Assembly: GCA_913055805.1 (NCBI GenBank)
Contig: CAJXLF010000005.1
Span: forward strand, 1 to 64,000
Length of the DNA: 64,000 bases
Direction: 5' to 3'
Source: an uncultured Salinisphaerales bacterium
Lineage (GTDB): Bacteria; Pseudomonadota; Gammaproteobacteria; Nevskiales; CAJXLF01
This document shows positions 173 to 59,104 of the stretch, in pieces. Under the pieces are notes generated by a model. It saw only the letters and a list, made by a program, of their open reading frames with translations. It was not told the origin of the DNA and did not search any database. The position numbers and the translations under genes are program-made. Position 1 is the first letter of the stretch. Every line of letters starts with the position of its first letter.

Positions 173-1270
173 CTACTGCGACAGTGGGCGTTCGCGCAGG
201 AAGCTGAACATTTCCTCATTCCACGCCTGCGGCCACAACGCGTGGCGCGCTGTGCCGATGGACAGCCAGCCTGTCGGGCCGTCGCTGTTGTAATCGCAAC
301 GGGCATCGCAGGCATCAATCTCGTTCCCCTGGATGTTGACGATGACGGGGCGGTATTCCACCTTTGGAAGAAACCGGCTCATCTTGGCGCTGAGCTGCTC
401 ACTGCCGGTCGTGCAGATGCCTATGACGTCACAATCGTTATGAATGGTCATGATCGGCCGCAGGTTGTTGCCGAAGGGGGTCTGGGCGCAGGGGTCATCC
501 ACATCCGAGAAAGGGTCCGGGTTGGAATAGATGGCGCTGGCCGCGATGCCCCGCGTGTTCAGGGCGTAGAGCATGGCCATGGCCGCGCCGTTTGAAATGC
601 CGGACATATAGCGGCGGTTCGGATCGACAATGCCGCGCGATTCCACAACTTCTATGAAGTGATCGATGGTGGCGGCATCGACGTTCATGCCGGGGTCATT
701 GCGGTCGAAGTTGCGGTACCAGTTGTCAAAACCCCAGGCATGATCGTCCGGGAAGGGGTAGTGATGCCCCTTGTCGCGGCCTTCCACCATCAGGAGGATG
801 AAGCCCGGACGTGACGCATCGCCGGTGAGGTCGGCGGTTTGGAAGTCAGAGTCGAAACCGATGATGAGTGTTTGTGGATCGCCAGGAAGAATCGAGCCGC
901 CCAGTAAGGTTATCAGTGGTAACGGTGACTCTTCCGAGGCATGCGCGGGGACTTGCAGACAGGCTTCGCGCGGCGTGCCCATGGCATCTTCCCAGGTCAG
1001 GTGCTCGCCACCCTTGAGTGGGCAGGTCAGTTCCACCGGATACAGCGAAGCCATTAGGCCCTGCAATGAAGTGGCTGTCGGAAAGGGATGATTGCCATAG
1101 ATGCCGTTGCAGTTCTCACCAGATGCGGGTTGCGGCGCGACCGCTGTGCCGCTGGCGCCGCCATGGCCAGGCGGCAGTACGGCGCTGTTACCGGAGTCGC
1201 CGCCACAGCCTGCCAGGACCAGCAGCGCCGCCAGATTGGCGAACCACAAATGGTTACGCGAGATACTCAT
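173..1270 (-). CDS. secreted esterase lipoprotein, PHB-depolymerase/feruloyl-esterase type
   Basis: A 365-residue alpha/beta hydrolase. The N-terminus is a lipoprotein signal: a hydrophobic stretch ending L-A-G-C with the lipidated cysteine at residue 22, then a Gly/Ser/Pro-rich linker to about residue 50. The nucleophile elbow is G224-I-S226-N-G228, the G-x-S-N-G form of poly(3-hydroxybutyrate) depolymerase-like esterases. D279 and H343 (in H-A-L-W-P) fit the remaining triad positions. It probably hydrolyses an ester outside the inner membrane; the polymer or lipid substrate is not readable. It lies 5 bases downstream of the SDR gene on the same strand, so the two are probably co-transcribed. 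Confidence 0.85.
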   Translation of the reverse strand: MSISRNHLWFANLAALLVLAGCGGDSGNSAVLPPGHGGASGTAVAPQPASGENCNGIYGNHPFPTATSLQGLMASLYPVELTCPLKGGEHLTWEDAMGTPREACLQVPAHASEESPLPLITLLGGSILPGDPQTLIIGFDSDFQTADLTGDASRPGFILLMVEGRDKGHHYPFPDDHAWGFDNWYRNFDRNDPGMNVDAATIDHFIEVVESRGIVDPNRRYMSGISNGAAMAMLYALNTRGIAASAIYSNPDPFSDVDDPCAQTPFGNNLRPIMTIHNDCDVIGICTTGSEQLSAKMSRFLPKVEYRPVIVNIQGNEIDACDARCDYNSDGPTGWLSIGTARHALWPQAWNEEMFSFLRERPLSQ

Positions 1271-1275
1271 ATATT

Positions 1276-2238
1276 TCAGAATTGTTCATTCACCAACGAT
1301 TCGCTCCTGGCCCACAAGGCTGCGGCTTTTACAGGGTCAAGAGCATAAGAGCGCACCCCGCTGCCAAACGCATTGGCCTCGATATCGCTTGATACCACAT
1401 GGCAATCCTCGCAGTAGCGGCCGCCTACCTGATCCGCATCGGCGACGACGCCGGCCCAGATGGATGTGGCGGCGCCCTGGGGGATGGATTTGAACTCAAA
1501 TGGGGGAAGGCCCTGCGCGGCGCGCCAGGCATTCATTCCCTTGAACATGGCCTCGGTCTGTTCGTCTTCCATGTGGCGTACCAGTTCAGTCCGGATAATG
1601 CCGGGGTGCACCGCAGTAGCCCTGACGCCGCTTGCACGGTGCCGCCGATCGAATTCTGCCGCAAAGAGCGCATTCGCCGTTTTTGAGCGTCCGTACGCCA
1701 GCATCGGATCATAGTCAGTCGTCAGGAAGTTCGGGTCGTCGAGATCGACGTCCGATATCCGGTGGGCCGCGGACGATAATACGACGACCCGGGAACGATT
1801 TTTCAGAAGTGGAGCGATGCGGTTGATCAGGACAAAATGACCCAGATGGTTCGTTCCGAACTGCATCTCGAAGCCGTCAGCAGTCCGGCTGAAGGGGCAG
1901 GCCATGACGCCCGCATTGGCGATGACAAGGTCGAAGGACTCGCCGGCGGCGAGCAATTGGTCGGCGCAGGTGCGTACGCTGGCGAGTGAGGCGAGGTCCA
2001 GTTCCACCAGCGTGAAGGTTTTCTGGTTCACCGACTTTGTTATCTCCGTGCTCGCGGCACCGGCTTTCTCCAGGTCGCGTGCCGTGCCCACCACCTGCGC
2101 ACCATGGGCGACCAGCGCACGGGCAGTTTCCCGACCGAGGCCGGCGGATATGCCCGTAACGAGAACGCGCTTGCCGCCGAGATCAATGCCGGAAAGGACT
2201 TCGTCCGTGGTTGATGTGGCTCCAAAGGGGGCTGACAT
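1276..2238 (-). CDS. SDR-family oxidoreductase
   Basis: A 320-residue classical-type short-chain dehydrogenase resembling retinol-dehydrogenase/WWOX-like members. The nucleotide motif TGISAGLG is at residues 28-35, NAG at 108-110, the catalytic serine in VVVLSSAAH near 155, and YGRSK (Tyr182, Lys186) completes the catalytic set. It should interconvert an alcohol and a ketone or aldehyde with NAD(P)H. Upstream lies the CoxG-like gene, 39 bases away on the same strand; downstream is the esterase lipoprotein. The run looks like one catabolic transcript, but the substrate is unknown. Confidence 0.88.
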   Translation of the reverse strand: MSAPFGATSTTDEVLSGIDLGGKRVLVTGISAGLGRETARALVAHGAQVVGTARDLEKAGAASTEITKSVNQKTFTLVELDLASLASVRTCADQLLAAGESFDLVIANAGVMACPFSRTADGFEMQFGTNHLGHFVLINRIAPLLKNRSRVVVLSSAAHRISDVDLDDPNFLTTDYDPMLAYGRSKTANALFAAEFDRRHRASGVRATAVHPGIIRTELVRHMEDEQTEAMFKGMNAWRAAQGLPPFEFKSIPQGAATSIWAGVVADADQVGGRYCEDCHVVSSDIEANAFGSGVRSYALDPVKAAALWARSESLVNEQF

Positions 2239-2277
2239 GGCTGGCTCCTGACGTCTGTTGGTGCGTAATACCGGGCG

Positions 2278-3024
2278 TCAGTTCGATGCCCGCTGACGGC
2301 CGAGCAGATAACCGATGGCGAGGACAACAAGCAGCAGCACCGCGCTATTGAAGTCTGCCGACGTGCCGCCGAGTAATCCGGCGCCGGCTTCGGCAGTCGA
2401 TTCCACGAAAGCGCGCCAGGCCAGCACCAGGGCCACGCAGGCGATGCCCAGTGCGGCCCAGGCGATCCCCCGGCCGCCACCGGCGCCGGCCGGGCGTGCG
2501 GGGGCGCGCACAACACGCCGGGGAGCGGTAGTCCCTGGCGCTGTAGTGGCAGCAGGCGCCGGTTGACCGGCAGCCGCTGTTTCCGGCACAGGCGCAAGCT
2601 GATTTGCCAGTTCCTTGAAGAAGGCCGCGGACAACGTTTTCGCCGTGGCGTCGATCATCCGGCCCCCCAGTTGCGCCAGCTTGCCGCCCACCTGGGCATC
2701 AACGGTGTAGGACAGGATGGTTTCCTCGCCCTCTGCCGCCAGCCGGACTATTGCATTCATGCGGGCAAACCCGGCAGGGCTCTGGCCTTCGCCGGTGAGG
2801 CGGTAGCCGTTGGGCGGGTCAAGCTCGCTCAGCGTCACAGCGCCGTCGAAACGGGCGGCAATCGGGCCGACCTTGACGAGCGCTACAGCCGTCATTTCAG
2901 TATCTGAATGCATTTCCAGCTCTTCGCAACCGGGTATGCAGGCGTGCAGAATCTCGGGGTTGTTCAGCGCGGCCCAGACGGCTTCGCGACTGGCTGGAAT
3001 GCGTACTTCGCCGGTTATGTCCAT
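2278..3024 (-). CDS. CoxG-like SRPBCC protein with C-terminal membrane segments
   Basis: A 248-residue protein. Residues 1-150 match the CO dehydrogenase subunit G (CoxG) SRPBCC fold, beginning MDITGEVRIPASREAVWAAL with the typical IPGCEELE stretch. A Pro/Ala/Arg-rich linker follows (about 150-185), then two hydrophobic segments (about 185-206 and 222-241), so the domain is probably tethered to the inner membrane. CoxG proteins assist molybdenum hydroxylases, but no CO dehydrogenase or xanthine-oxidase-type gene is in the window, so that partner role is not supported here. It may simply bind a hydrophobic ligand. Confidence 0.8.
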   Translation of the reverse strand: MDITGEVRIPASREAVWAALNNPEILHACIPGCEELEMHSDTEMTAVALVKVGPIAARFDGAVTLSELDPPNGYRLTGEGQSPAGFARMNAIVRLAAEGEETILSYTVDAQVGGKLAQLGGRMIDATAKTLSAAFFKELANQLAPVPETAAAGQPAPAATTAPGTTAPRRVVRAPARPAGAGGGRGIAWAALGIACVALVLAWRAFVESTAEAGAGLLGGTSADFNSAVLLLVVLAIGYLLGRQRASN

Positions 3025-3099
3025 GTTGGAATTCCTCCCTGTTTCTCCTGAAACGTCATCTGCCTCATACAGGGGGCAGGTGAGTCAGGACGCAGGCAG

Positions 3100-4155
3100 T
3101 CAGATATGTCGTGCAAGGAAATCTCCGATAGCGGGCCGCACTATGTGCGCCTTGTCGTGGCAGCAGTGGCCGCTGTCGCCGAAAATCATGGTCTCGACCA
3201 GATCCTTCCTGATGTCGGCGATAAGCTTCTCGGCGTTGTACAGCGGCGTCACCTGGTCCAGGCCGCCGTGTATCACCAGCGTCGGCACATTAATGCGTTC
3301 CGCATGGCCCTTCAGGTTCAGGAAAGAAAAGTACTCCTGCGCTTCCGTCGGGGTGGCCTTGCCAGAAATGAAGGTGAGCGCGGCGCGGGTGGCCGGGGTG
3401 TGCTCGTCCATTGGCAGCAGGTCATAGGCGACACCCCAGGCCACGAGCACCTTGATGCGGCGATCCGCCGAAGTGGCCCGCGGCGCAAAGTAGCCACCCA
3501 TGCTGCGTCCCACTATGCCGAGGCGACCGGTATCCACTTCCTCGCGGCTTTCGAGATAGTCAATCGCGGCGCTGACCGCGGCCTCGAAATCCGGGATCGA
3601 ACGCATCTTGAAGACCGTTTCACCTTGTCCCGGGCCGTCGAAGGAAAACGTCGCCAGGCCGCGTTTTACGCATATGTCACTGACCGAAAGATAGTCTTCC
3701 TTGGTGGTGTCGAGGCCGCCGATGAGAATGACGACCGGCGGCTTTTCCTCGCTCTCGGGTACGCGCAGGTAGCCTGTGATATCAATGCCGCGGAAGGGGA
3801 AGCTGACGATCTCGACCGGTGGGCCAAGCAGCGGTGCAGCACGCCTGAAGGCGTCGGTTTTGGCCTGGTGTATTTTCTCCTTGTAGCCCTCATCCTCGAA
3901 ATACATGTACTGCGCGTAGTGGTAATACAGCGAGGCGCGGAAGAACTCCCCGGCAGCCGTCACCCCGGCGTCCTTTGACATCGCCTCGTCGCCACGGCGT
4001 TCGGCCTCGGCTGCATAGGCGCTCCAGACGCGGGGCCAGTCTGCCCAGTTCCTTATTTCGTTGCGGATGTTGATCAGGTCCCGATAATGCACGCCATCGG
4101 CGAGGAACCGGTCGATCCCCTTGTCGATCATGATTTGCGGTGAGTCGGTAGCCAT
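3100..4155 (-). CDS. alpha/beta hydrolase (FrsA / dihydropseudooxynicotine-hydrolase type)
   Basis: A 351-residue hydrolase with a helical N-terminal cap (about 1-115) followed by an alpha/beta fold. The nucleophile is G216-R-S218-M-G220; D300 (HGGLD) and H330 (SGH) are plausible acid and base. The cap-plus-core arrangement resembles FrsA-like esterases and C-C bond hydrolases acting on ring-cleavage products. It has no signal peptide and is cytoplasmic. It lies between the CoxG-like gene (75 bases downstream) and a TetR gene, all on the minus strand. Substrate not identifiable. Confidence 0.85.
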   Translation of the reverse strand: MATDSPQIMIDKGIDRFLADGVHYRDLINIRNEIRNWADWPRVWSAYAAEAERRGDEAMSKDAGVTAAGEFFRASLYYHYAQYMYFEDEGYKEKIHQAKTDAFRRAAPLLGPPVEIVSFPFRGIDITGYLRVPESEEKPPVVILIGGLDTTKEDYLSVSDICVKRGLATFSFDGPGQGETVFKMRSIPDFEAAVSAAIDYLESREEVDTGRLGIVGRSMGGYFAPRATSADRRIKVLVAWGVAYDLLPMDEHTPATRAALTFISGKATPTEAQEYFSFLNLKGHAERINVPTLVIHGGLDQVTPLYNAEKLIADIRKDLVETMIFGDSGHCCHDKAHIVRPAIGDFLARHI

Positions 4156-4282
4156 GTATTTTCCGTTCGCCAGGAAGTGCCCTGTAATGGGTTGGTGAAC
4201 TTATTGTTTCTGTTGCCGGGCCGCGTTTGAAATAGTTTGTCTTTATGCGAGCAATGCGTGCCCGGCATGGCTGCTCAAGGGT

Positions 4283-4308
4283 GGGTCAACCCCGCATGGG
4301 ATTGACCC
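4283..4308. repeat. hairpin between TetR and hydrolase genes
   Basis: GGGTCAA (4283-4289) and TTGACCC (4302-4308) form a 7-bp inverted repeat, with further CCC/GGG pairing inside. It lies just after the TetR stop on the minus strand but has no T-run, so it could be a weak terminator, a processing site or an operator. Confidence 0.4.
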
Positions 4309-4325
4309 CGGGTGACTAAATGGGC

Positions 4326-5033
4326 TCAGTGGAAGATGGCGCTGATCATCAGTTGCCAGTATTTCTCTACGGTTTTGGAATCCTGCAGGGAGAAGCCGAA
4401 AGTTGTGTGCATTTCCTCCTTGAGAGAGGAGGGCGTGGTGGCGATGCCAATCAGCATGTAATAAATCAGATTGGGGTCGCCTTGCAGCATGTCTCCGTTT
4501 TTCTGAGCCTGACGGATTTGCGGCAGTATGCGTTTTCTGATCGGTGACAGAATATTGTCGATGAGCCAGGCAAGCCGCTCGCTGGAGCCATGGTTTTCCT
4601 GCAGCATGAAATGATGGAACGCTGTATGTTCGATCGTAAAATTCAGCAGGGCACGGCCTTCCATCTTGACGCGGTCAGCGGCTGACATATCAGGCGAGGA
4701 GCGTATGGTTTCATCCCATACCGTGGTCATCTGAGAGAAAGCGTCAATCGCTACGGCACGCCAGAGTTCATCCTTGTTTTTGAAATGATACGGAATCAGG
4801 GTGAAATCGACGCCGGCACGTTGGCCGATTCGGCGCATGCTTGTGCTCTCGAACCCGTTTTCCGCAAATTCAATAAGGGCAGCATCCAGCAGTGCCCGGC
4901 GGGTATCGATCGAGCGCTGCTGTTCACGCCGGACACGTTTCACTTTCTGCCCTGCAGCGCGGGCTGAGGTTGCTGGCGCCTTCCTGCTCCCAGCGTTTTC
5001 CGATGTGATTTTTTTCTTTGCCTGACGGGCCAT
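4326..5033 (-). CDS. TetR/AcrR-family transcriptional regulator
   Basis: A 235-residue regulator. A basic N-terminal extension (Lys/Arg/Ala-rich, residues 1-38) precedes a TetR HTH at about 40-90 (RRALLDAALIEFAENGF, then RIGQRAGVDFTLIPYHFKNK). The remainder is the ligand-binding and dimerisation domain. It is transcribed in the same direction as the hydrolase and CoxG-like genes downstream and separately from the thiolase operon, which ends in a terminator at 5210-5251. Its target cannot be read from the 230-base upstream gap. Confidence 0.9.
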   Translation of the reverse strand: MARQAKKKITSENAGSRKAPATSARAAGQKVKRVRREQQRSIDTRRALLDAALIEFAENGFESTSMRRIGQRAGVDFTLIPYHFKNKDELWRAVAIDAFSQMTTVWDETIRSSPDMSAADRVKMEGRALLNFTIEHTAFHHFMLQENHGSSERLAWLIDNILSPIRKRILPQIRQAQKNGDMLQGDPNLIYYMLIGIATTPSSLKEEMHTTFGFSLQDSKTVEKYWQLMISAIFH

Positions 5034-5263: not shown

Positions 5264-6448
5264 TCAGGCGATCTCAAACAGACCCGCCGCACCCATGCCG
5301 CCGCCCACACACATGGTGATGACCGCGTATTTGACGCCGCGTCGCTTGCCTTCGATCAGGGCGTGACCCACCAGGCGTGCACCGGTCATGCCGTAAGGAT
5401 GGCCGATGGAAATGCCGCCGCCGTTGACGTTGTACTTTTCCGGATCAATGCCCAGGTGGTCGCGGCAATACAGGGCCTGGCAGGCAAAAGCCTCGTTGAG
5501 TTCCCACAGGCCGATATCGTCAACCGTGAGGCCATGCTGTTTGAGCAGTTTGGGAACGGCGTAGATGGGTCCGATGCCCATTTCCTCGGGTGCGCAGCCC
5601 GCCACTGCAATGCCGCGGTAGATGCCCAGCGGACTCAGGCCACGCTGCTCAGCCAGCTTGGCGTCCATCACCACGCAGGCAGATGCGCCGTCGGAGAGCT
5701 GGCTTGCATTGCCGGCGGTAATCACCCCGCCTTCCACCACCGGGTCCAGTTTCTGCAGATCCGCCAGAGTGGTGGAAGCGCGGTTGCCCTCATCGTGCTT
5801 CAGGGTGACTTCTTCGTAGGTGACCGCCTTGGTTTCGCGGTCCATTATGGCTTTGGTTGTGGCCAGGGGAACAATTTCGTCATCGAAACGGCCGGCTTGC
5901 TGCGCGGCAGCCGTGCGCTGCTGGGAACTCAGGGCGTACTCATCCTGGGCCTCACGCTGGATGCCGTAAGTTCTGGATACATGCTCAGCAGTATGCAGCA
6001 TGGGCATATAGGCGTGCTCAGCCCGGGCGACCACGTTGGGGTCCACACTCTTGCCTACCCACTCGGCGTACTTCAACTGGATTTCGGAAATATTCTCTTG
6101 ACCGCCCGCCACGACCACCTGCATGCCGTCCACGATGATCTGCTTGGCGGCCGTAGCAACCGCCATCAATCCCGAGGAACACTGGCGGTCCATGGTCTGG
6201 CCCGAGACAGTGCTGGGCAGGCCCGCGGCCAGTGCGGCCAGGCGGCCGAGGTTGAGGCTGGCGCTGCCGGCATTGAGCGACGAACCGACGATGACGTCAT
6301 CTACCTCGGAGCCATCGACGCCGGCACGCGATACCGCATGCGAGATAGCATGGCCCATCAGGGTCGGTGATTTGGTGTTGTTGAAAGCACCCTTGAAGGC
6401 CTTGCCTATAGGGGTGCGGGCAGTGGATACGATAACGGCTTCTTTCAT
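5264..6448 (-). CDS. acetyl-CoA C-acyltransferase (thiolase)
   Basis: A 394-residue biosynthetic/degradative thiolase. The ATG at 6448 is preferred over a TTG 21 bases earlier because AAGGAG lies 10 bases upstream and the family begins MKEAVIVSTARTPIGK. The acylated cysteine is C90 (MDRQCSSG), with the histidine in GGGISIGHPYGMTG and the second cysteine in CVGGGMG near the C-terminus. It cleaves 3-oxoacyl-CoA with CoA, or condenses two acyl-CoAs. It is the last gene of the DUF1302-DUF1329-DUF1329 operon (39-base gap), which links that envelope system to acyl-CoA metabolism. Confidence 0.93.
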   Translation of the reverse strand: MKEAVIVSTARTPIGKAFKGAFNNTKSPTLMGHAISHAVSRAGVDGSEVDDVIVGSSLNAGSASLNLGRLAALAAGLPSTVSGQTMDRQCSSGLMAVATAAKQIIVDGMQVVVAGGQENISEIQLKYAEWVGKSVDPNVVARAEHAYMPMLHTAEHVSRTYGIQREAQDEYALSSQQRTAAAQQAGRFDDEIVPLATTKAIMDRETKAVTYEEVTLKHDEGNRASTTLADLQKLDPVVEGGVITAGNASQLSDGASACVVMDAKLAEQRGLSPLGIYRGIAVAGCAPEEMGIGPIYAVPKLLKQHGLTVDDIGLWELNEAFACQALYCRDHLGIDPEKYNVNGGGISIGHPYGMTGARLVGHALIEGKRRGVKYAVITMCVGGGMGAAGLFEIA

Positions 6449-6487
6449 GTCTAATAGACTCCTTTGCAAATGATAGGGCTGATGTGG

Positions 6488-7846
6488 CTACTTGAGCGCC
6501 CGCTTCTGGATGGCATTCGGTTCAAAGTCCACATCGTCGAAGGTGACTGAGTAATCGTTCGGCTTGTCCTCGTTGGCCATTGAAGTGAGGAAGTAACGGC
6601 CGGAATTGAAGTGATAAATGACCTCGGGCACGCCTATGGCCGACTGAATATTGGAAAGATAGATGGTGTGTCCTTCCTGCATCTGCATCAGCCCGCCGCG
6701 CGCGTCGTAGTTGTCCACAACGGGCGGGTACCAGGCGTCCTCGTCCATATAGAAAACGCGCCGGTGAAAGGTGTGGTTGGTGCCTTCGCGGATGCTGGCC
6801 TCGACCACCCAGACACGGTGTTTCTCGTAACGCGGCAGATCCTGATTGATGTGCCCGGGTGCCGCCATATCGGCGAACTTGACGCTGTCACCGGAAATCT
6901 TGTTGGAGTTGTAGGGCACGATCATTTCGCGCTTGCCGAGCAGCTTCCAGGTGTAGCGTTCGAGCACGCCGTTGAACATGTCCACCTGGTCGTAGAACTG
7001 ATGGCCGTCGGAGCCCTCATAGGGGTTGTCGCAGCACACATTGGGCGCGCGCCGCAGCCGTTTGATCGCCGGGGAATACAACCAGGCCTGGCGGCCAGCT
7101 GCACGGGTGCCTGCGCGTTCATGCACCAGCAGCATAAGCCCTGCCATACGCGGTGGCTCGATGGTCTGTGAGAAATATTTGAAGAACAGTGCGCTGTCTT
7201 CCAGCAGGGGTACTGGGTCCTGTTCCGGCGGCAGCGCATAATAGTTTTTCAATTCCTCGATGATCTTGGTGAGCTGGAACTGGCCATCGCGCTGCACGAT
7301 CATCTGGTTGTTGTAACGGCGTACATCCGAGCCCCGGTAGCGTACCCTGTGATTCCAGATCACCTCGGCGCCGGATTGCGGGATGGGATAAGTGAAGCCG
7401 ATCTTGCAGTTATCGGGAGTGTCTACGTCCAACAGATCGCAGTTGGTCGCATTCCATTTGGTCCACTCGTAGATAAAGTCCGGAAACGATACCGAGCGAT
7501 GGCTCGGGTAGACGTTCATCTTGTAGCTGTCGTAGTTCTGCAGCAGATACTTGTGCCCCTCGCTGAGCATGGCCTCGTATTCGGCCATGTTCGCCTTGGT
7601 AATGGTGAACAGCGGCTTTTCTGCATCAATCACCGGGTCCGAGGGATATGCGCCTGACAACTCGCCTTTCTGCGGCGCCGGCGTCCATTCCGGAATGCTA
7701 CCGTCTTCGTTGCCGGCCTTTTCCGCACCCACCGGGGTCAATTCAGTCCCCAGCCTGGCCGCCTCCTCGGGCGATACCTTGGCTATGACCGGGTATGCGG
7801 CAAGGCAGGCCATTGCGGCCAAGGAAATGCTCATAAACTTGTGCAT
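6488..7846 (-). CDS. DUF1329 exported protein, copy A
   Basis: A 452-residue protein from ATG 7846. That start is preferred because GGAG lies 6 bases upstream and the family starts at the signal peptide; an ATG four codons earlier (7858) overlaps the RBS. The signal peptide MHKFMSISLAAMACLAAYPVIA probably ends at VIA|K. DUF1329 members are exported proteins that usually neighbour DUF1302 barrels and have been likened to LolA/LolB-type lipid carriers; the biochemical role is not established. Residues 1-198 are identical to copy B at DNA level, and the C-terminal part has diverged. It lies between copy B and the thiolase in one operon. Confidence 0.88.
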   Translation of the reverse strand: MHKFMSISLAAMACLAAYPVIAKVSPEEAARLGTELTPVGAEKAGNEDGSIPEWTPAPQKGELSGAYPSDPVIDAEKPLFTITKANMAEYEAMLSEGHKYLLQNYDSYKMNVYPSHRSVSFPDFIYEWTKWNATNCDLLDVDTPDNCKIGFTYPIPQSGAEVIWNHRVRYRGSDVRRYNNQMIVQRDGQFQLTKIIEELKNYYALPPEQDPVPLLEDSALFFKYFSQTIEPPRMAGLMLLVHERAGTRAAGRQAWLYSPAIKRLRRAPNVCCDNPYEGSDGHQFYDQVDMFNGVLERYTWKLLGKREMIVPYNSNKISGDSVKFADMAAPGHINQDLPRYEKHRVWVVEASIREGTNHTFHRRVFYMDEDAWYPPVVDNYDARGGLMQMQEGHTIYLSNIQSAIGVPEVIYHFNSGRYFLTSMANEDKPNDYSVTFDDVDFEPNAIQKRALK

Positions 7847-7859
7847 GGGAGTCTCCATA

Positions 7860-7966
7860 TCAGAACTGGTACTTCACGAAGAAACGGGCGTTATCGCGGT
7901 CAGCCAGGAGGTTGGCTTTGCCGCCGTCAGTGAAGAACTGGTAACCAAAGTTGAACGACAGGTTGG
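7860..7966 (-). pseudogene. relic of the DUF1302 gene 3' end
   Basis: These 107 bases are identical to 9363-9469, the last 35 codons and TGA of the DUF1302 gene, but have no start or upstream coding sequence here. They mark the left edge of the tandem duplication and lie in the intercistronic gap between the two DUF1329 copies. The segment is transcribed with the operon and leads into the RBS of copy A exactly as the real DUF1302 end does for copy B. Confidence 0.93.
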
Positions 7967-7990
7967 TGCAAAATGATATGGCTGATACGG

Positions 7991-9349
7991 TTACTTGAGC
8001 GCCCGCTTCTGGATGGCATTCGGCTCAAAGTCCGCGTCGTCGAATTTGACAGACCAATCGTTTGGTTTGTCTTCGTTGGCCATCGCGGTAATGAAATATC
8101 GGCCTGAATTGAAGTGGTAGATAACCTCGGGCGTACCTAACGCCGTCTGTATGTTCGAGACGAAAACAGTATGGCCCTCCTGCATCTGCATCAGCCCGCC
8201 GCGTGCGTCATAGTTGTCAACCGCCTGCGGATACCAACTATCTTCATCCACGTAGAAAACGCGCTTATGAAAGATATGATTGGTCCCCTCGCGGATGCTG
8301 GCCTCGACCACCCAGACACGGTGTTTCTCGTAGCGTGGAAGGTCCTGGTTGAGGTGTCCCGGCGCAGCTAGGTCGGCAAACTTGACGCTGTCGCCTGCAA
8401 TCCTGTTGGAGTTGTAGGGCACGATCATTTCGCGCTTGCCGAGCAGCTTCCAGGTGTAGCGTTCGAGTACGCCGTTGAACATGTCCACCTGGTCGTAAAA
8501 CTGGTGGCCGTCGGTGCCCTCGTAGGGGTTGTCGCAGCAGACCGTCGGTGCACGCCGCAGGCGCTTGATCGCCGGGGAATACAACCAGGCCTGACGCCCC
8601 TCGGGACCGGCGCCGGAGCGCTCATGCGCAAGGAGCATCAAGCCGGCCATGCGCGGAGGCTCGACGGTTTGAGAGAAATACTTGAGGAAGAGGCCATCCC
8701 CTTTCAGTAACGGCATGGGGTTCTTGTCTGGGGCCACAGCGTAGTAGAGCTTGGCTTCCTCGATGATCTTGGTGAGCTGGAACTGGCCATCGCGCTGCAC
8801 GATCATCTGGTTGTTGTAACGGCGTACATCCGAGCCCCGGTAGCGTACCCTGTGATTCCAGATCACCTCGGCGCCGGATTGCGGGATGGGATAAGTGAAG
8901 CCGATCTTGCAGTTATCGGGAGTGTCTACGTCCAACAGATCGCAGTTGGTCGCATTCCATTTGGTCCACTCGTAGATAAAGTCCGGAAACGATACCGAGC
9001 GATGGCTCGGGTAGACGTTCATCTTGTAGCTGTCGTAGTTCTGCAGCAGATACTTGTGCCCCTCGCTGAGCATGGCCTCGTATTCGGCCATGTTCGCCTT
9101 GGTAATGGTGAACAGCGGCTTTTCTGCATCAATCACCGGGTCCGAGGGATATGCGCCTGACAACTCGCCTTTCTGCGGCGCCGGCGTCCATTCCGGAATG
9201 CTACCGTCTTCGTTGCCGGCCTTTTCCGCACCCACCGGGGTCAATTCAGTCCCCAGCCTGGCCGCCTCCTCGGGCGATACCTTGGCTATGACCGGGTATG
9301 CGGCAAGGCAGGCCATTGCGGCCAAGGAAATGCTCATAAACTTGTGCAT
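7991..9349 (-). CDS. DUF1329 exported protein, copy B
   Basis: A 452-residue paralogue of copy A with the same signal peptide and the same start logic (ATG 9349, GGAG 6 bases upstream; the ATG at 9361 follows the DUF1302 TGA by one base). The N-terminal ~198 residues are identical to copy A; the rest differs at about 43 positions, mostly conservative, clustered just after the identical tract and at the C-terminus. The conserved core, including CCDNPYEG, DGHQFYDQVDMFNGVLERY and REGTNH, is kept in both, so both copies look functional. It is probably the copy in the original position, directly downstream of DUF1302. Confidence 0.9.
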   Translation of the reverse strand: MHKFMSISLAAMACLAAYPVIAKVSPEEAARLGTELTPVGAEKAGNEDGSIPEWTPAPQKGELSGAYPSDPVIDAEKPLFTITKANMAEYEAMLSEGHKYLLQNYDSYKMNVYPSHRSVSFPDFIYEWTKWNATNCDLLDVDTPDNCKIGFTYPIPQSGAEVIWNHRVRYRGSDVRRYNNQMIVQRDGQFQLTKIIEEAKLYYAVAPDKNPMPLLKGDGLFLKYFSQTVEPPRMAGLMLLAHERSGAGPEGRQAWLYSPAIKRLRRAPTVCCDNPYEGTDGHQFYDQVDMFNGVLERYTWKLLGKREMIVPYNSNRIAGDSVKFADLAAPGHLNQDLPRYEKHRVWVVEASIREGTNHIFHKRVFYVDEDSWYPQAVDNYDARGGLMQMQEGHTVFVSNIQTALGTPEVIYHFNSGRYFITAMANEDKPNDWSVKFDDADFEPNAIQKRALK

Positions 9350-9362
9350 GGGAGTCTCCATA

Positions 9363-11870
9363 TCAGAACTGGTACTTCACGAAGAAACGGGCGTTATCGC
9401 GGTCAGCCAGGAGGTTGGCTTTGCCGCCGTCAGTGAAGAACTGGTAACCAAAGTTGAACGACAGGTTGGACTTGTAGCGGACTTCCAATCCGAGATCGCC
9501 GATCTTGCGGCCCTCGACAAAATTGGAGGCCAGGCCGGGTGAAGTGCCTTCCACGTCATGTTTGAGCAAAATGATCGGTTGCAGGCTGATACCGGGCATT
9601 ACCGACTCGTAGCGAATCAGGGCCAGGATGACGTAACCGGCTGACCATTCGTCCGGGAACAGATCGAGATCTTCCTGATGAGGATTGAAGCGCAAACCGT
9701 CCGGCCCGAAAGAGCAGGCCTGGTTGGTCGAGCATGCCTGACGTGAGCGGTCGGCGCCGGAGCCGTCCGCACCGGCCGAAGCGTGCAGGAAGGTACCGGG
9801 AGCCTCCAGTTGAAGCACGTCCAGGGCCGGGATGTCCGGCACCCAGGTGGCGCCGGTTTCAAACAGCAGAATGATCTGGTCGGTTTTTATCAGTTTCGAC
9901 AGTGGATGGGTGGCGCCCATGATGTAGGTGCCGCCAAGGTTGAACTGGTAGGTGTCGAAGTACTCCCAGCCGCGGATATAGGAATTGCCCGGATTGGTGC
10001 CGAGCACACCGCCGCGGTAGGGAATGATGAAGTTCGGGAAGTGACGCCCGGAGCCGGCCAGATGACCGGCGAAGAGGTCGTAGGTGTCATTGAAGCTGCC
10101 GGGAGTCCCGTTGGCATCAACAACGTGGTCACTCGAAAGATAGGTAATAGTATTGCCATTGGGGTCGACACCGAAGCCAACAGTCGAGCCGGCACAACCA
10201 GCCTCGGGAAGATGGCAGTTGGTAGTGGTCGGTCCGAAACCCGCCAGGGCGAGATCCTCTATATCCACCTGCAGCGGTGCGTCGGGGCGGTAAGCCACCT
10301 CGCCCTGCAGGGCGATGTCTCCAAAGGTGGTGTTGAAGCTCAAACCCCACATCTGGATGTCTTCGGGGTATTCCAACTGCACCCTGAATTCATCAAACCT
10401 CACTGCATCGCTGGTTGCGCCGTTCGGGTCATTGGGGCTGAGCACGGCATGAACAAACGGTATATCGGGACATGCCGTAAGGAATTCCACGGTGTTGGTG
10501 GTATGTTTGGCGCAGCCCTCAGGGACCGAATACACACTTACGAACGGCGTACGCGCGTGGTAATTCATGAAATAGAAGCCGAACTCCGTGCCGTTGTTGA
10601 TGTTGTCGGCGTAATAGCGCAGCTGGATGCCGTATTGGCCGGAATCCTTCGCCTCGTTATCCGGCATGCGTATTGCAGATGCCGTGGTATTGGTCAAGGC
10701 GGAAAACGGGTTGTCGAGCAGGTTTCCAACACGATCCGGGTCCTCTGCATTGGAGCCGAAGCCCAGGTTCAGGGTACGCACGGCATTGTTGGTTCCGATG
10801 TCAATCGGCGAGAAAAACGAACCTGGCGCCGGTAATTCTGTCGGCCGCCATTCAAGCTGATAAAAGCCGGACAGTGACAAGGAACTGGTAAGTGAAGTAT
10901 TCAGCGAGATCATGTTGACCGGCGTGAATACTTCTTCCAGCACCATGCCTACCCGGAACAGGTTGTTGGCGTTGGCGGGGTTGGCCTGATTGAGGGAATC
11001 GAAGACCAGGACCGTGGACTCGCCCCAGTTGATGGTTTGGCGACCGATGCGAAAATCCAGCGAACGGCCGCCGACCGGCAGGGGCAGCTCGCCGTAGAAG
11101 TTCAGGTCCAACACCTGCAGGTCCTGACCGATCTGTTTCAGTGTCTCCTTGTCCCTGCGCTGGTTTTTCACCACGCCACCTTTGCCGTAGACGATGCCGC
11201 AGGGCCCTCCTGTGGGGTTGCGTTCCGGCGGACATGGCTGCGAGTCAGTGCGCGCTGTGAACAGTGAGAAGGTGGAAAAGTTGATCGGTAACCCGACCGG
11301 CAGCCCCGGAAACAGAAGCTCATCGCCCAGGGTTGAGACATAACCGACCTCATGCAGATTATCCCTGGTGATGCGGTTGGGATGAAATTCCTCGAAATCG
11401 TTGTTGACGAAATCGTGGAAGAACAGGGCGCGTGCGAACAGGCCGAAATCGCCGAAGGACAGCGTGAGGTCTTCGGTGATCTTGAGCGGCGCCTGCACCA
11501 TGTCGTACTTGTCGTAATTAAGGTTGCCGTCATCGGCATTGGTGCTGAACTGGCCAGGACCAGAGACGAGTCGTTCCGACACAAAAACCTGGTCCCGGTA
11601 CATGCCCTGACAAGACTGGTAGAGGATGCCGCCATCCGGCGTGCGGCCGCAAATATCCGGGTTGATGTTGGTCTTGCCGACCAGATCATCCGACCGCTCC
11701 TCCATGCGCCAGGCTGCGCCCAATGTAATCGAGGTATTCAGTACACCGCTGACTTCCTCGCCTGCGAGGTTGAAGCTGAAGCTGTAAGCATGACTGTCGG
11801 TTGAATATCCCGCGGCTGCTGTCAGTAACACAGACCCGAGCAGTCCGAGAATGTAATTTCTGTCTCTCAT
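9363..11870 (-). CDS. DUF1302 outer-membrane protein
   Basis: An 835-residue protein from ATG 11870; AGGAGG lies 4 bases upstream, so this start is preferred over an in-frame one at 11921. The signal peptide (MRDRNYILGLLGSVLLTAAAG...) probably ends after SHA, followed by alternating, aromatic-rich strands and a C-terminal F (FVKYQF), the usual terminal residue of outer-membrane beta-barrels. DUF1302 proteins are predicted barrels encoded beside DUF1329; a porin or lipid-transfer role is suggested by context only. It is the first gene of the operon with the DUF1329 pair and the thiolase. Its last 107 bases are also present as a relic at 7860-7966. Confidence 0.88.
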   Translation of the reverse strand: MRDRNYILGLLGSVLLTAAAGYSTDSHAYSFSFNLAGEEVSGVLNTSITLGAAWRMEERSDDLVGKTNINPDICGRTPDGGILYQSCQGMYRDQVFVSERLVSGPGQFSTNADDGNLNYDKYDMVQAPLKITEDLTLSFGDFGLFARALFFHDFVNNDFEEFHPNRITRDNLHEVGYVSTLGDELLFPGLPVGLPINFSTFSLFTARTDSQPCPPERNPTGGPCGIVYGKGGVVKNQRRDKETLKQIGQDLQVLDLNFYGELPLPVGGRSLDFRIGRQTINWGESTVLVFDSLNQANPANANNLFRVGMVLEEVFTPVNMISLNTSLTSSLSLSGFYQLEWRPTELPAPGSFFSPIDIGTNNAVRTLNLGFGSNAEDPDRVGNLLDNPFSALTNTTASAIRMPDNEAKDSGQYGIQLRYYADNINNGTEFGFYFMNYHARTPFVSVYSVPEGCAKHTTNTVEFLTACPDIPFVHAVLSPNDPNGATSDAVRFDEFRVQLEYPEDIQMWGLSFNTTFGDIALQGEVAYRPDAPLQVDIEDLALAGFGPTTTNCHLPEAGCAGSTVGFGVDPNGNTITYLSSDHVVDANGTPGSFNDTYDLFAGHLAGSGRHFPNFIIPYRGGVLGTNPGNSYIRGWEYFDTYQFNLGGTYIMGATHPLSKLIKTDQIILLFETGATWVPDIPALDVLQLEAPGTFLHASAGADGSGADRSRQACSTNQACSFGPDGLRFNPHQEDLDLFPDEWSAGYVILALIRYESVMPGISLQPIILLKHDVEGTSPGLASNFVEGRKIGDLGLEVRYKSNLSFNFGYQFFTDGGKANLLADRDNARFFVKYQF

Positions 11871-11939
11871 GTCCCCTCCTATGCACTGCGTTTCCCCCGT
11901 GGTGTGCCCTTTGATACGCACCCGTCCAGGTTCCTTTAA

Positions 11940-12000
11940 TTTTCAACAACTGTATAATTTATTAGCACAATGGAATATTTAATTCAACAGTTGATGAAAA
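11940..12000. promoter_or_regulatory. inverted-repeat operator pair and promoter of the DUF1302 operon
   Basis: TTTTCAACAACTG (11940-11952) and CAGTTGATGAAAA (11988-12000) are inverted repeats matching at 12 of 13 positions. Between them, on the minus strand, lie TTGAAT (11987-11982), a 17-base spacer and TAATAA (11964-11959), a good sigma-70 promoter for DUF1302. On the plus strand TATAAT at 11953-11958 could serve the divergent TetR gene. The arrangement is typical of a TetR repressor controlling itself and the divergent operon. Confidence 0.7.
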
Positions 12001-12001
12001 T

Positions 12002-12643
12002 ATGAATACCGGCAAGCCACGGGCTCGGGGGCGCCCGGCCAAAGACCTGCAAGTCGCACCGGAGCAGTTGTTGCGACAGGTATTCAGGATGTTTGCGAGG
12101 GAGGGGTATGAAGGCGCATCACTGCGGATGCTGGCGGCAGATGCGGGGGTCAACTACACACTGTTCCGCCACCACTTTGGCACCAAGGATGCGCTTTGGC
12201 GTGCTGCCGTAGAGTCCGAAATGGCGCCTCTGGTCCGTCAGCTCAGCCAGATTCTGGACGGTTCCAGAGAGCCAGAGGATCTTATTGCCGCATTGCGCAA
12301 GAACATCACGGCTGTCTTGACGTTAGTAGCGAGTAATCCCGAACCCGCCGGCGTGCTGTTAAAAGATTCCACGGATGATGAACGGTGCCAATGGCTGTAC
12401 GAGCATTTCCTGGGCCCATATCTGAACCGGGTTGAGCAGGCTTACGAGGAGGCCCGTGAACTTCAGCTGATCCGCGAGGTTCCGTTCGACAGCCTGCACG
12501 GAATGGTTATGGGGGTAGCCCGCATGATGGTCGATCCGGGTCCGCTGGCTCCGCGGATGAAACCAATCCTGGAGGATCCGGAGAAACTGCGTGCTTACAT
12601 CGAAGGTACGGTGGCCACGTTGTTTGACGGGCTTGCGCTTTGA
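12002..12643 (+). CDS. TetR-family regulator, probable repressor of the DUF1302-DUF1329-thiolase operon
   Basis: A 213-residue TetR regulator with an Arg/Gly/Pro-rich start and an HTH at about 20-65 (RQVFRMFAREGYEGASLRMLA, AGVNYTLFRHHFGTKDALW). The ATG at 12002 follows immediately after an inverted-repeat arm and has no clear Shine-Dalgarno, so translation may be weak. It is divergent from the DUF1302 operon across 131 bases holding the inverted repeats. It probably senses a lipid or acyl-CoA ligand, which is inference. It converges with the LysR gene, with one base between stops. Confidence 0.9.
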   Translation: MNTGKPRARGRPAKDLQVAPEQLLRQVFRMFAREGYEGASLRMLAADAGVNYTLFRHHFGTKDALWRAAVESEMAPLVRQLSQILDGSREPEDLIAALRKNITAVLTLVASNPEPAGVLLKDSTDDERCQWLYEHFLGPYLNRVEQAYEEARELQLIREVPFDSLHGMVMGVARMMVDPGPLAPRMKPILEDPEKLRAYIEGTVATLFDGLAL

Positions 12644-56986: not shown

Positions 56987-59104
56987 TCAGAAATTGTAAA
57001 TCAGGCTGATGCCCAGATTATCGCGATCCCGGCGCAAATTGCGTTCGTCGCCATCGTGATACTGGTAAATGATGTTGCCCGAAAAATCGCTGCCCAGTTC
57101 AAAGAACAGACCAGGCGCCATCATGCGGGTATCTTCCACATAGTTTTGCATGGGCGAGGGTGATATTCCCTCAATATCCTCAAACCAGATCAGGGTCGGG
57201 TAGAGGTTCACATCCTTGCCAAACAGGTTGAAGACGTTGTTGTAGGTGATGCGCAGCAGTGTGCGCACGCCCCAGGCAAAGTCCTCGGCAAAACCTTCAG
57301 TCTGCTGGGTGGGGTTGATGGACAGGGTATTGACCGGCTGGCCAGCAGGTTGTCCTGTGCCGTCTGAACCGGGCGTGGGGTGGCTGAAGTCCCCGGCGCC
57401 CTGGAAAGCCAACTCCGTCGGGTCCGGCAAGTCCCTGACATGGGTGAAGCCAGCTTCCACCAGCCAGATTATCTGATTGGCTTTGATTGGGTTGCTGGAG
57501 GAGAATATGCGTACGCCGGTCAGAACAAATTGATCTACCTTGAAACGTTCATAACCGGGAATGTATTCACCGGGCAAGGGTGTCTGGTTGCGGTATTCAG
57601 TAAGCAGAGCGGGGAATACTGAACGTGCGCCAGGTATGGTGAACAGCGTTGCGCCCGGGATTACACCAACGCCGACAGGAATATCTTCGGCTGGCACAGA
57701 GTTCTGCAGCGCGGTGAATACCACGTCGCTTTGTAATACCTGGAGGGGCAGGTTGTCCCGGTATGCGTATTCGCCCGATACCGACCATTTGCCCAGTGTC
57801 GTGTTGAAGCTGGTGCCGAAAAGCCGGATATCTTCAGGAAAATCCTGAAACAGACGCATCGTATCCACCGGGGTGGGTTCGAGGCCAACTGGGTTGAACG
57901 CACCATTGAAGCCCTGACATGCGGCCAGTGCCGAGACAAGGTCACCGGGTATCGCCGCATCCCTTGTACATGAGCGATCACCGGCATGAGCGCTGGCATA
58001 AGGCAGGCGGCTATGATAGTTCGCGTAGTAGAAGCCCAGTTCGGTGCCATTGAGAAGATCTTCCGCATACCAGTTCAACCTGAGGCCGTATTGGCCGCCA
58101 TCCTCCGGGGCGGCGAAGCGCTCGTTGGGAATAAACAGGGTGCGGGTAGCGGAACTTATCAGCCGGGCATTGCCCTCGGAGACATACTGTTTATTGGGGT
58201 CTTCGGCAAACTGGCCGAGGCCGAGTATGGCGTAGTCGCCGCCACCCGCCACGTCGTTAACAGAAAGAAAGCTGCCGGCCGGATCGGGCCGCACCGGTTC
58301 CCAGTCGTATTGGTAGAAGGCCTCCAGGGAGAGGGATTCGGTCAAGGTGGCGGAAGCGACCGCCAGACCGACAGGAATATTGATTTCGCCGATGGAAAAC
58401 CCGGGCATGCGTGCCAGGCCGGCATCCAGGGGGTTGATGACATCCAGGGTGTTGAACAGGTGCAGATTCGCTTCGCCCCAGCGCAAACGCTGCTGGCCCA
58501 GGGTGAGGCTCAGTTCACGATCGAAAACCGTGAATAATCCGTTAATGAAGGCCTCGCGTACTTCGGCGTTCTTGGCATAGCGCTCTTCAACTTCGCGGCC
58601 ACGATCCGTGTGGCGCGGTTGCAGCCGGGTGTTGTTATGCGTTTCTTCGAAATCGGTGTTGATCGGATCGTAGAAGCCGATGCCGGAGAACTTGAAAATG
58701 AAATTGTCCCAGGTGGCCGTGATCTTGGTGCTGAGCTTGGTGACCGCGGCAACCGGATCGTACTGGTCGTAGTTCATGTTGCCGTTGTCGGTGTTGTGCA
58801 GGGTGTAGCCGCCTTCGGCATTCACCAGACGCCGGATGGGTTCGACACTGCCATCCAGGCCGAGGCAATCCTCGGGCGCGCAGAGATTCTGTTGGCCAGG
58901 GACGTTGAGCTTGCCCAGCAAGGCATTATCGCGTTCTTCCATACGCCAGGCGGCGCCGATGGAAACGCGGTTTTCAATGGAAAAATCGATTCCTGCCCAG
59001 GAATAGTCCCAGGCAGATGCTGATGTGGCCGCCAGACAGGCCACAGGAATGGCGACAACAGGCCAATACAGGCGCCGTGTCCTGAATAGAACTCCCCCCG
59101 ACAT
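56987..59104 (-). CDS. DUF1302 outer-membrane protein, second paralogue
   Basis: A 705-residue relative of the protein at 9363-11870. The start ATG 59104 has GGGAGG 10 bases upstream. The signal peptide (VVAIPVACLAATSASA|WDYSW) and the mature barrel with the N-terminal block FSIENRVSIGAAWRMEERDNALLGK (shared in pattern with TLGAAWRMEERSDDLVGK of the other copy) and terminal F (LIYNF) support an outer-membrane barrel. It lies downstream of the YCF48-MMPL operon but behind a terminator, so it has its own transcription. Confidence 0.88.
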   Translation of the reverse strand: MSGGVLFRTRRLYWPVVAIPVACLAATSASAWDYSWAGIDFSIENRVSIGAAWRMEERDNALLGKLNVPGQQNLCAPEDCLGLDGSVEPIRRLVNAEGGYTLHNTDNGNMNYDQYDPVAAVTKLSTKITATWDNFIFKFSGIGFYDPINTDFEETHNNTRLQPRHTDRGREVEERYAKNAEVREAFINGLFTVFDRELSLTLGQQRLRWGEANLHLFNTLDVINPLDAGLARMPGFSIGEINIPVGLAVASATLTESLSLEAFYQYDWEPVRPDPAGSFLSVNDVAGGGDYAILGLGQFAEDPNKQYVSEGNARLISSATRTLFIPNERFAAPEDGGQYGLRLNWYAEDLLNGTELGFYYANYHSRLPYASAHAGDRSCTRDAAIPGDLVSALAACQGFNGAFNPVGLEPTPVDTMRLFQDFPEDIRLFGTSFNTTLGKWSVSGEYAYRDNLPLQVLQSDVVFTALQNSVPAEDIPVGVGVIPGATLFTIPGARSVFPALLTEYRNQTPLPGEYIPGYERFKVDQFVLTGVRIFSSSNPIKANQIIWLVEAGFTHVRDLPDPTELAFQGAGDFSHPTPGSDGTGQPAGQPVNTLSINPTQQTEGFAEDFAWGVRTLLRITYNNVFNLFGKDVNLYPTLIWFEDIEGISPSPMQNYVEDTRMMAPGLFFELGSDFSGNIIYQYHDGDERNLRRDRDNLGISLIYNF

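Follow-up and report, generated by a model that had tools for sequence, protein, structure and literature searches.

The locus described here lies on contig CAJXLF010000005.1 of an uncultured Salinisphaerales bacterium, within an analysed stretch of 64,000 nt (the window), to which all coordinates refer. On the minus strand, a DUF1302 gene is followed by two DUF1329 genes, the upstream copy A and the downstream copy B, and then by a thiolase gene. In minus-strand order the features are:

9363..11921, minus strand: intact gene for an outer-membrane-type DUF1302 protein (Pfam PF06980, E 3.5e-163)
8756..9469, minus strand: identical block, copy 1, with 107 nt of the DUF1302 end, the signal peptide and the N half of A (714/714)
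7991..9361, minus strand: DUF1329 copy A, upstream copy (PF07044, 395 bits), probable start at 9349 (GGAG-6-ATG)
7991..8755, minus strand: diverged C half of A, 80% identical to B (dS 1.12, dN 0.098)
7967..7990, minus strand: 24 bases after the stop of A, ending at the join with the remnant, about 20/24 matching the 24 bases of B
7860..7966, minus strand: non-coding remnant of the DUF1302 3' end (Pfam, frame reading), without an in-frame start and carrying part of the translation start region of B
7253..7966, minus strand: identical block, copy 2, with the DUF1302 remnant and the N half of B, the likely recipient (714/714)
6488..7858, minus strand: DUF1329 copy B, downstream copy (PF07044, 391 bits), probable start at 7846
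6488..7252, minus strand: diverged C half of B, 80% identical to A, with possible older exchange tracts at codons 300-320 and 346-357
5264..6469, minus strand: thiolase gene downstream of B (PF00108 and PF02803; acetyl-CoA acyltransferase)

Both copies match the DUF1329 profile over its full length and far above the cut-off (395 and 391 bits versus 23.1), and in both the likely start is codon 5, where GGAG is followed by ATG (9349 and 7846). The C-terminal end of the intact DUF1302 protein aligns with those encoded by its own paralogue and by the DUF1302 genes of G004, a genome of the same order but a different family. In Pseudomonas putida, a DUF1302-DUF1329 pair has been linked to the use of Tween 20 (PMC10866462), and in Castellaniella to that of monoterpenes (PMC6394551); DUF1329 was proposed to be a periplasmic partner of the DUF1302 barrel (PMC10866462, PMC6394551). 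The present locus shares with AmeABCD (PMC6394551) and PP_0765/PP_0766 (PMC10866462) the adjacency of the two families and a secreted LolA-like protein. It differs in that two DUF1329 genes stand behind one DUF1302 gene, and in that a thiolase gene adjoins instead of COG4447 and RND genes; in fact, no RND or COG4447-type match was found among the ten genes scanned between 173 and 12643, so that the arrangement is not an operon of the AmeABCD type. The region around the thiolase gene (173-5033) encodes an SDR, a CoxG-like protein, an FrsA-like esterase and a TetR regulator, which together with the thiolase suggests that the cluster serves the breakdown of a hydrophobic substrate.

The most conspicuous feature of the locus is the repeated block. 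Realignment of 7253-7966 with 8756-9469 (offset 1503) yielded 714 identical bases out of 714, exactly as a previous reading made from the sequence alone had reported. Besides codons 1-202 with the signal peptide, the block takes in the ribosome site and 107 bases from the end of DUF1302, and within it not a single difference is found over some 200 third codon positions and the 107 non-coding bases. Judged from the sequence, chance cannot account for so long an identical run, because in the other half of the gene 40% of the third codon positions have changed. The same reading had expected a sharp step rather than a smooth gradient of identity; a gradient was sought and none was found, as identity changes from one base to the next and drops to 30/50 in the first 50-base window past the block. 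The locus thus displays one mark of interlocus gene conversion, a sharp-edged block of identity between paralogues that includes silent sites and exceeds that of the flanks. No homology was detected beyond either outer end of the duplicated units, the window holds no other repeated 77-mers, and further copies of the block are absent from the genome, the next best match being a paralogous DUF1302-DUF1329 pair on contig C1 (72%). A search of viral contigs gave no match.

The remainder of the two genes presents a very different picture. Over the 762 coding bases of the C halves, A and B are 80.1% identical, and only 59.8% identical at third positions. The proteins differ at 43 positions, all within codons 203-456 and without indels, and these counts had been given correctly before. 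That a duplication of uniform age could not produce both halves had also been claimed, and the comparison with the family bears this out: in 90 family pairs with C halves that are 79-88% identical, the N halves are 64-86% identical and never 100%. The N-half identity must therefore be younger than the C-half divergence. A single old duplication with a much slower N half has, in our judgement, practically no chance of being correct. Nothing was found to support it, the N half not being the more conserved half in the family (where N identity exceeds 70%, the C half in fact averages 4 points higher), and it is refuted by the identity of all silent sites and of the 107 non-coding bases.

The C halves themselves have remained under constraint. 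Their dN/dS is about 0.09 (dN 0.098, dS 1.12), which points to purifying selection on both and supports function, though not a different function for each. A relative-rate test between A and B was not significant (13 versus 22, p 0.175). In a C-half tree, A and B are sisters (SH-aLRT 99), followed by the G004 gene and then by the C1 paralogue from the same genome. With the two C halves as sisters and the G004 relative outside, A and B would thus both descend from one gene after the split from G004. Synonymous distances are near saturation for A, B, the G004 gene and the C1 paralogue, which indicates that the pair is old. Being sisters and diverged, the two copies may both have existed before the exchange, in a comparison whose relatives come from outside the family. 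Conversion with a third paralogue was considered as well and rejected, the N and C halves being equally distant from that paralogue.

The best available reading, which we consider probable, is that of an old tandem pair followed by a recent one-way copying from A to B within the genome, repeated or one-sided versions included. More specifically, a tandem DUF1329 pair behind one DUF1302 gene would have been old and diverged to about 80% identity, after which a recent non-reciprocal homologous exchange would have copied the 5' part of A, together with the adjoining DUF1302 end, over the 5' part of B. The exchange tract would stop at codon 202 at one side and at the upstream end of the unit at the other. 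We infer the direction from A to B, a single recent event and earlier, smaller exchanges; A is taken as the source because the stretch of DUF1302 found in the block is the end of the intact gene that directly precedes A.

The remnant in front of B is central to the argument. The 107-base non-coding relic of the DUF1302 3' end, noticed in the sequence-only reading, was recovered independently by the Pfam DUF1302 model, which matches 7863-7967 as a separate hit with 25.5 bits, above the cut-off. Moreover, the homology of the units runs about 24 bases past the stop codons (7967-7990 versus 6464-6487, some 20/24 identical as read off the alignment). These matching bases fit the duplication of an old unit that would have consisted of remnant, gene and 24 bases and in which A later overwrote the front of B, perhaps repeatedly. 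As a separate observation, the match of the 24 bases exceeds the expectation from the silent-site divergence of the C halves. The block ends exactly at the non-homologous join, with little or no microhomology. One homologous end and one non-homologous join are thus present, and an old duplication junction would look alike. It is awkward for the old pair, nevertheless, that a non-coding remnant as old as a dS of 1.1 should have decayed. Since the remnant has not decayed and the block is exact up to the join, there would have been more than one exchange, or else the remnant came in with the recent event. Elsewhere in the order, DUF1329 genes also occur in tandem (L046, L049, L048, L117, L124), with members that are much more diverged; between the other tandem pairs, in six genomes, no DUF1302 remnants were seen apart from one short candidate match in G061 (C34).

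The main rival takes the opposite course, in that a locus with one gene would have received the diverged C half and the 24-base tail from a relative, entering by homology on the codon 202 side and by illegitimate joining on the other, by which the 714-base block was duplicated around the insert. This type of event is documented: additive homology-facilitated illegitimate recombination has been reported in bacteria (PMC3240628) and was proposed for genes with a constant 5' and a variable 3' part (PMC5361080). An import accounts directly for the pristine remnant and for the extension of the block right up to a non-homologous join that shows little or no microhomology. In addition, the C halves of A and B are nearly as far apart (83% amino-acid identity) as they are from the G004 gene (80 and 76%). 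However, the C halves are each other's sisters, and their GC3 equals that of the neighbouring genes, by which a foreign origin judged from composition was rejected. The silent sites, moreover, suggest a long co-residence of the copies, though patchy transformation could mimic this. We consider an import rather unlikely. In sum, the sister C halves, the normal GC3 and the silent clustering favour the old pair, whereas the pristine remnant favours a recent event with one homologous and one non-homologous end that brought the remnant along, or the additive insertion of a foreign C half. Of the earlier proposal that a recent exchange had overwritten the 5' half, including signal peptide and RBS, the exchange stands as the best reading; perfect identity, the choice between conversion and C-half import, and the proposed specialisation of the C halves are not established.

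The silent differences between A and B within the C half are clustered beyond what regional constraint explains (p about 0.005). Regional constraint was modelled from 1398 unrelated pairs, and control pairs give 1% at the 0.01 level; a first value of p 0.0014 had ignored this constraint and was superseded. Likewise, a runs test on third positions of A and B versus three outgroups gave p 0.0055 or less, versus 0.07-0.20 for pairs that are not expected to convert. Candidate tracts of older exchange lie at codons 260-265, 300-320, 346-357 and 447-455. We regard this clustering, which repeated exchange between resident copies would be expected to produce, as moderate evidence of their long co-residence. 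A comparable patch is found in a neighbouring DUF1329 pair of genome G026:

L125 (G026:C2:179000-198000), genes 11175-12533 and 6114-7454: identity patch at codons 251-350

Here identity is 92-99% within the patch, 53-89% before and 71-85% after it (run probability 0.0027), and the patch is likely another partial conversion, one that affected a different stretch of the gene.

The nature of the assembly sets the terms on which the repeat is to be read. Where the contig ends of the genome share sequence (L158-L197), most overlaps are exactly 77 bases long, and a search for a 16S gene found none; from this we recognise the product of a short-read de Bruijn assembler run at k=77. Contig C14 carries N at both ends. 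In a k=77 graph rebuilt from the window, the block is one collapsed edge with one in-branch, one out-branch and a loop, hence two ways in and two ways out. The loop has a single path through all edges, so the order is forced, provided that all edges stem from one molecule. The k-mers that span the junctions presumably derive from real reads, and the junctions of the repeat are probably real. An assembly effect, in which slightly different N halves, or a loop that only some of the population carries or that occurs in more copies, were merged at k=77, is a possibility that we regard as unlikely, and less probable than the import. The 77-base overlaps, the simplicity of the loop and the lack of a 16S gene in the genome, the N-filled ends of C14 aside, speak for it. 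Short-read assembly may hide small differences between the N halves, and metaSPAdes indeed collapses bulges into a consensus (PMC8021871), which could mask scattered differences. On the other hand, merging cannot mask a divergence of 20%, and an N-free graph contig needs reads over each of the four branches, so that neither the remnant junction nor the two C halves should be artefacts. Perfect identity, the presence of exactly two copies and their presence in all cells are not proven on a short-read, k=77 basis. The locus thereby illustrates what short-read assembly can and cannot prove about repeats.

Returning to the old pair with its recent exchange, the half-gene homogenisation is a clear case of an already known kind of event. 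It shares with gene conversion and concerted evolution of bacterial paralogues (tuf, fla and others; PMC6053082) the local identity that includes silent sites, but here only half a gene and a fragment of its neighbour are involved, while the other half is strongly diverged. The C-terminal displacement of T6SS effectors and Rhs proteins (PMC5361080) is similar in its constant 5' part, its different 3' part and its combination of one homologous with one non-homologous end, whereas here both genes are complete, the C halves are homologous and there is no toxin or immunity logic. The locus offers a clean case from nature in which tandem paralogues have been homogenised over half of the gene.

The consequences at the protein level can be outlined with the AlphaFold model of copy A (mean pLDDT 87), which contains a LolA-like domain at about residues 158-455. 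This part matches LolA3 (9tp6, Z 20.7) and the solved DUF1329 protein 4z48 (Z 18.3) and thus has a LolA-like fold. According to the model, the part that A and B have in common would run from the signal peptide through the N-terminal domain into the LolA-like domain, of which it takes in roughly the first 45 residues, while the rest of that domain is diverged; in 17 of the 43 changes, hydrophobic or aromatic residues replace one another. Both proteins may be secreted LolA-like carriers that work with the single DUF1302 barrel, and it is plausible that they carry different cargo on that one barrel. As a matched carrier pair that differs only in the LolA-like core, they are useful for testing binding by the core. 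The broader notion that DUF1329 carriers diversify by partial swapping, in which the N-terminal part is repeatedly exchanged and the lipid-binding C parts are kept different while docking on one DUF1302 barrel, is speculative and in our view improbable.

A second DUF1302 gene lies within the window (56990-59044, minus strand), with no adjoining DUF1329 gene among the matches listed for the genome. In the 3.4 Mb genome (G000), DUF1329 genes number about 20 and DUF1302 genes 22, the remnant not counted, and in genome G018 the DUF1329 and DUF1302 searches returned 22 and 23 matches, respectively.
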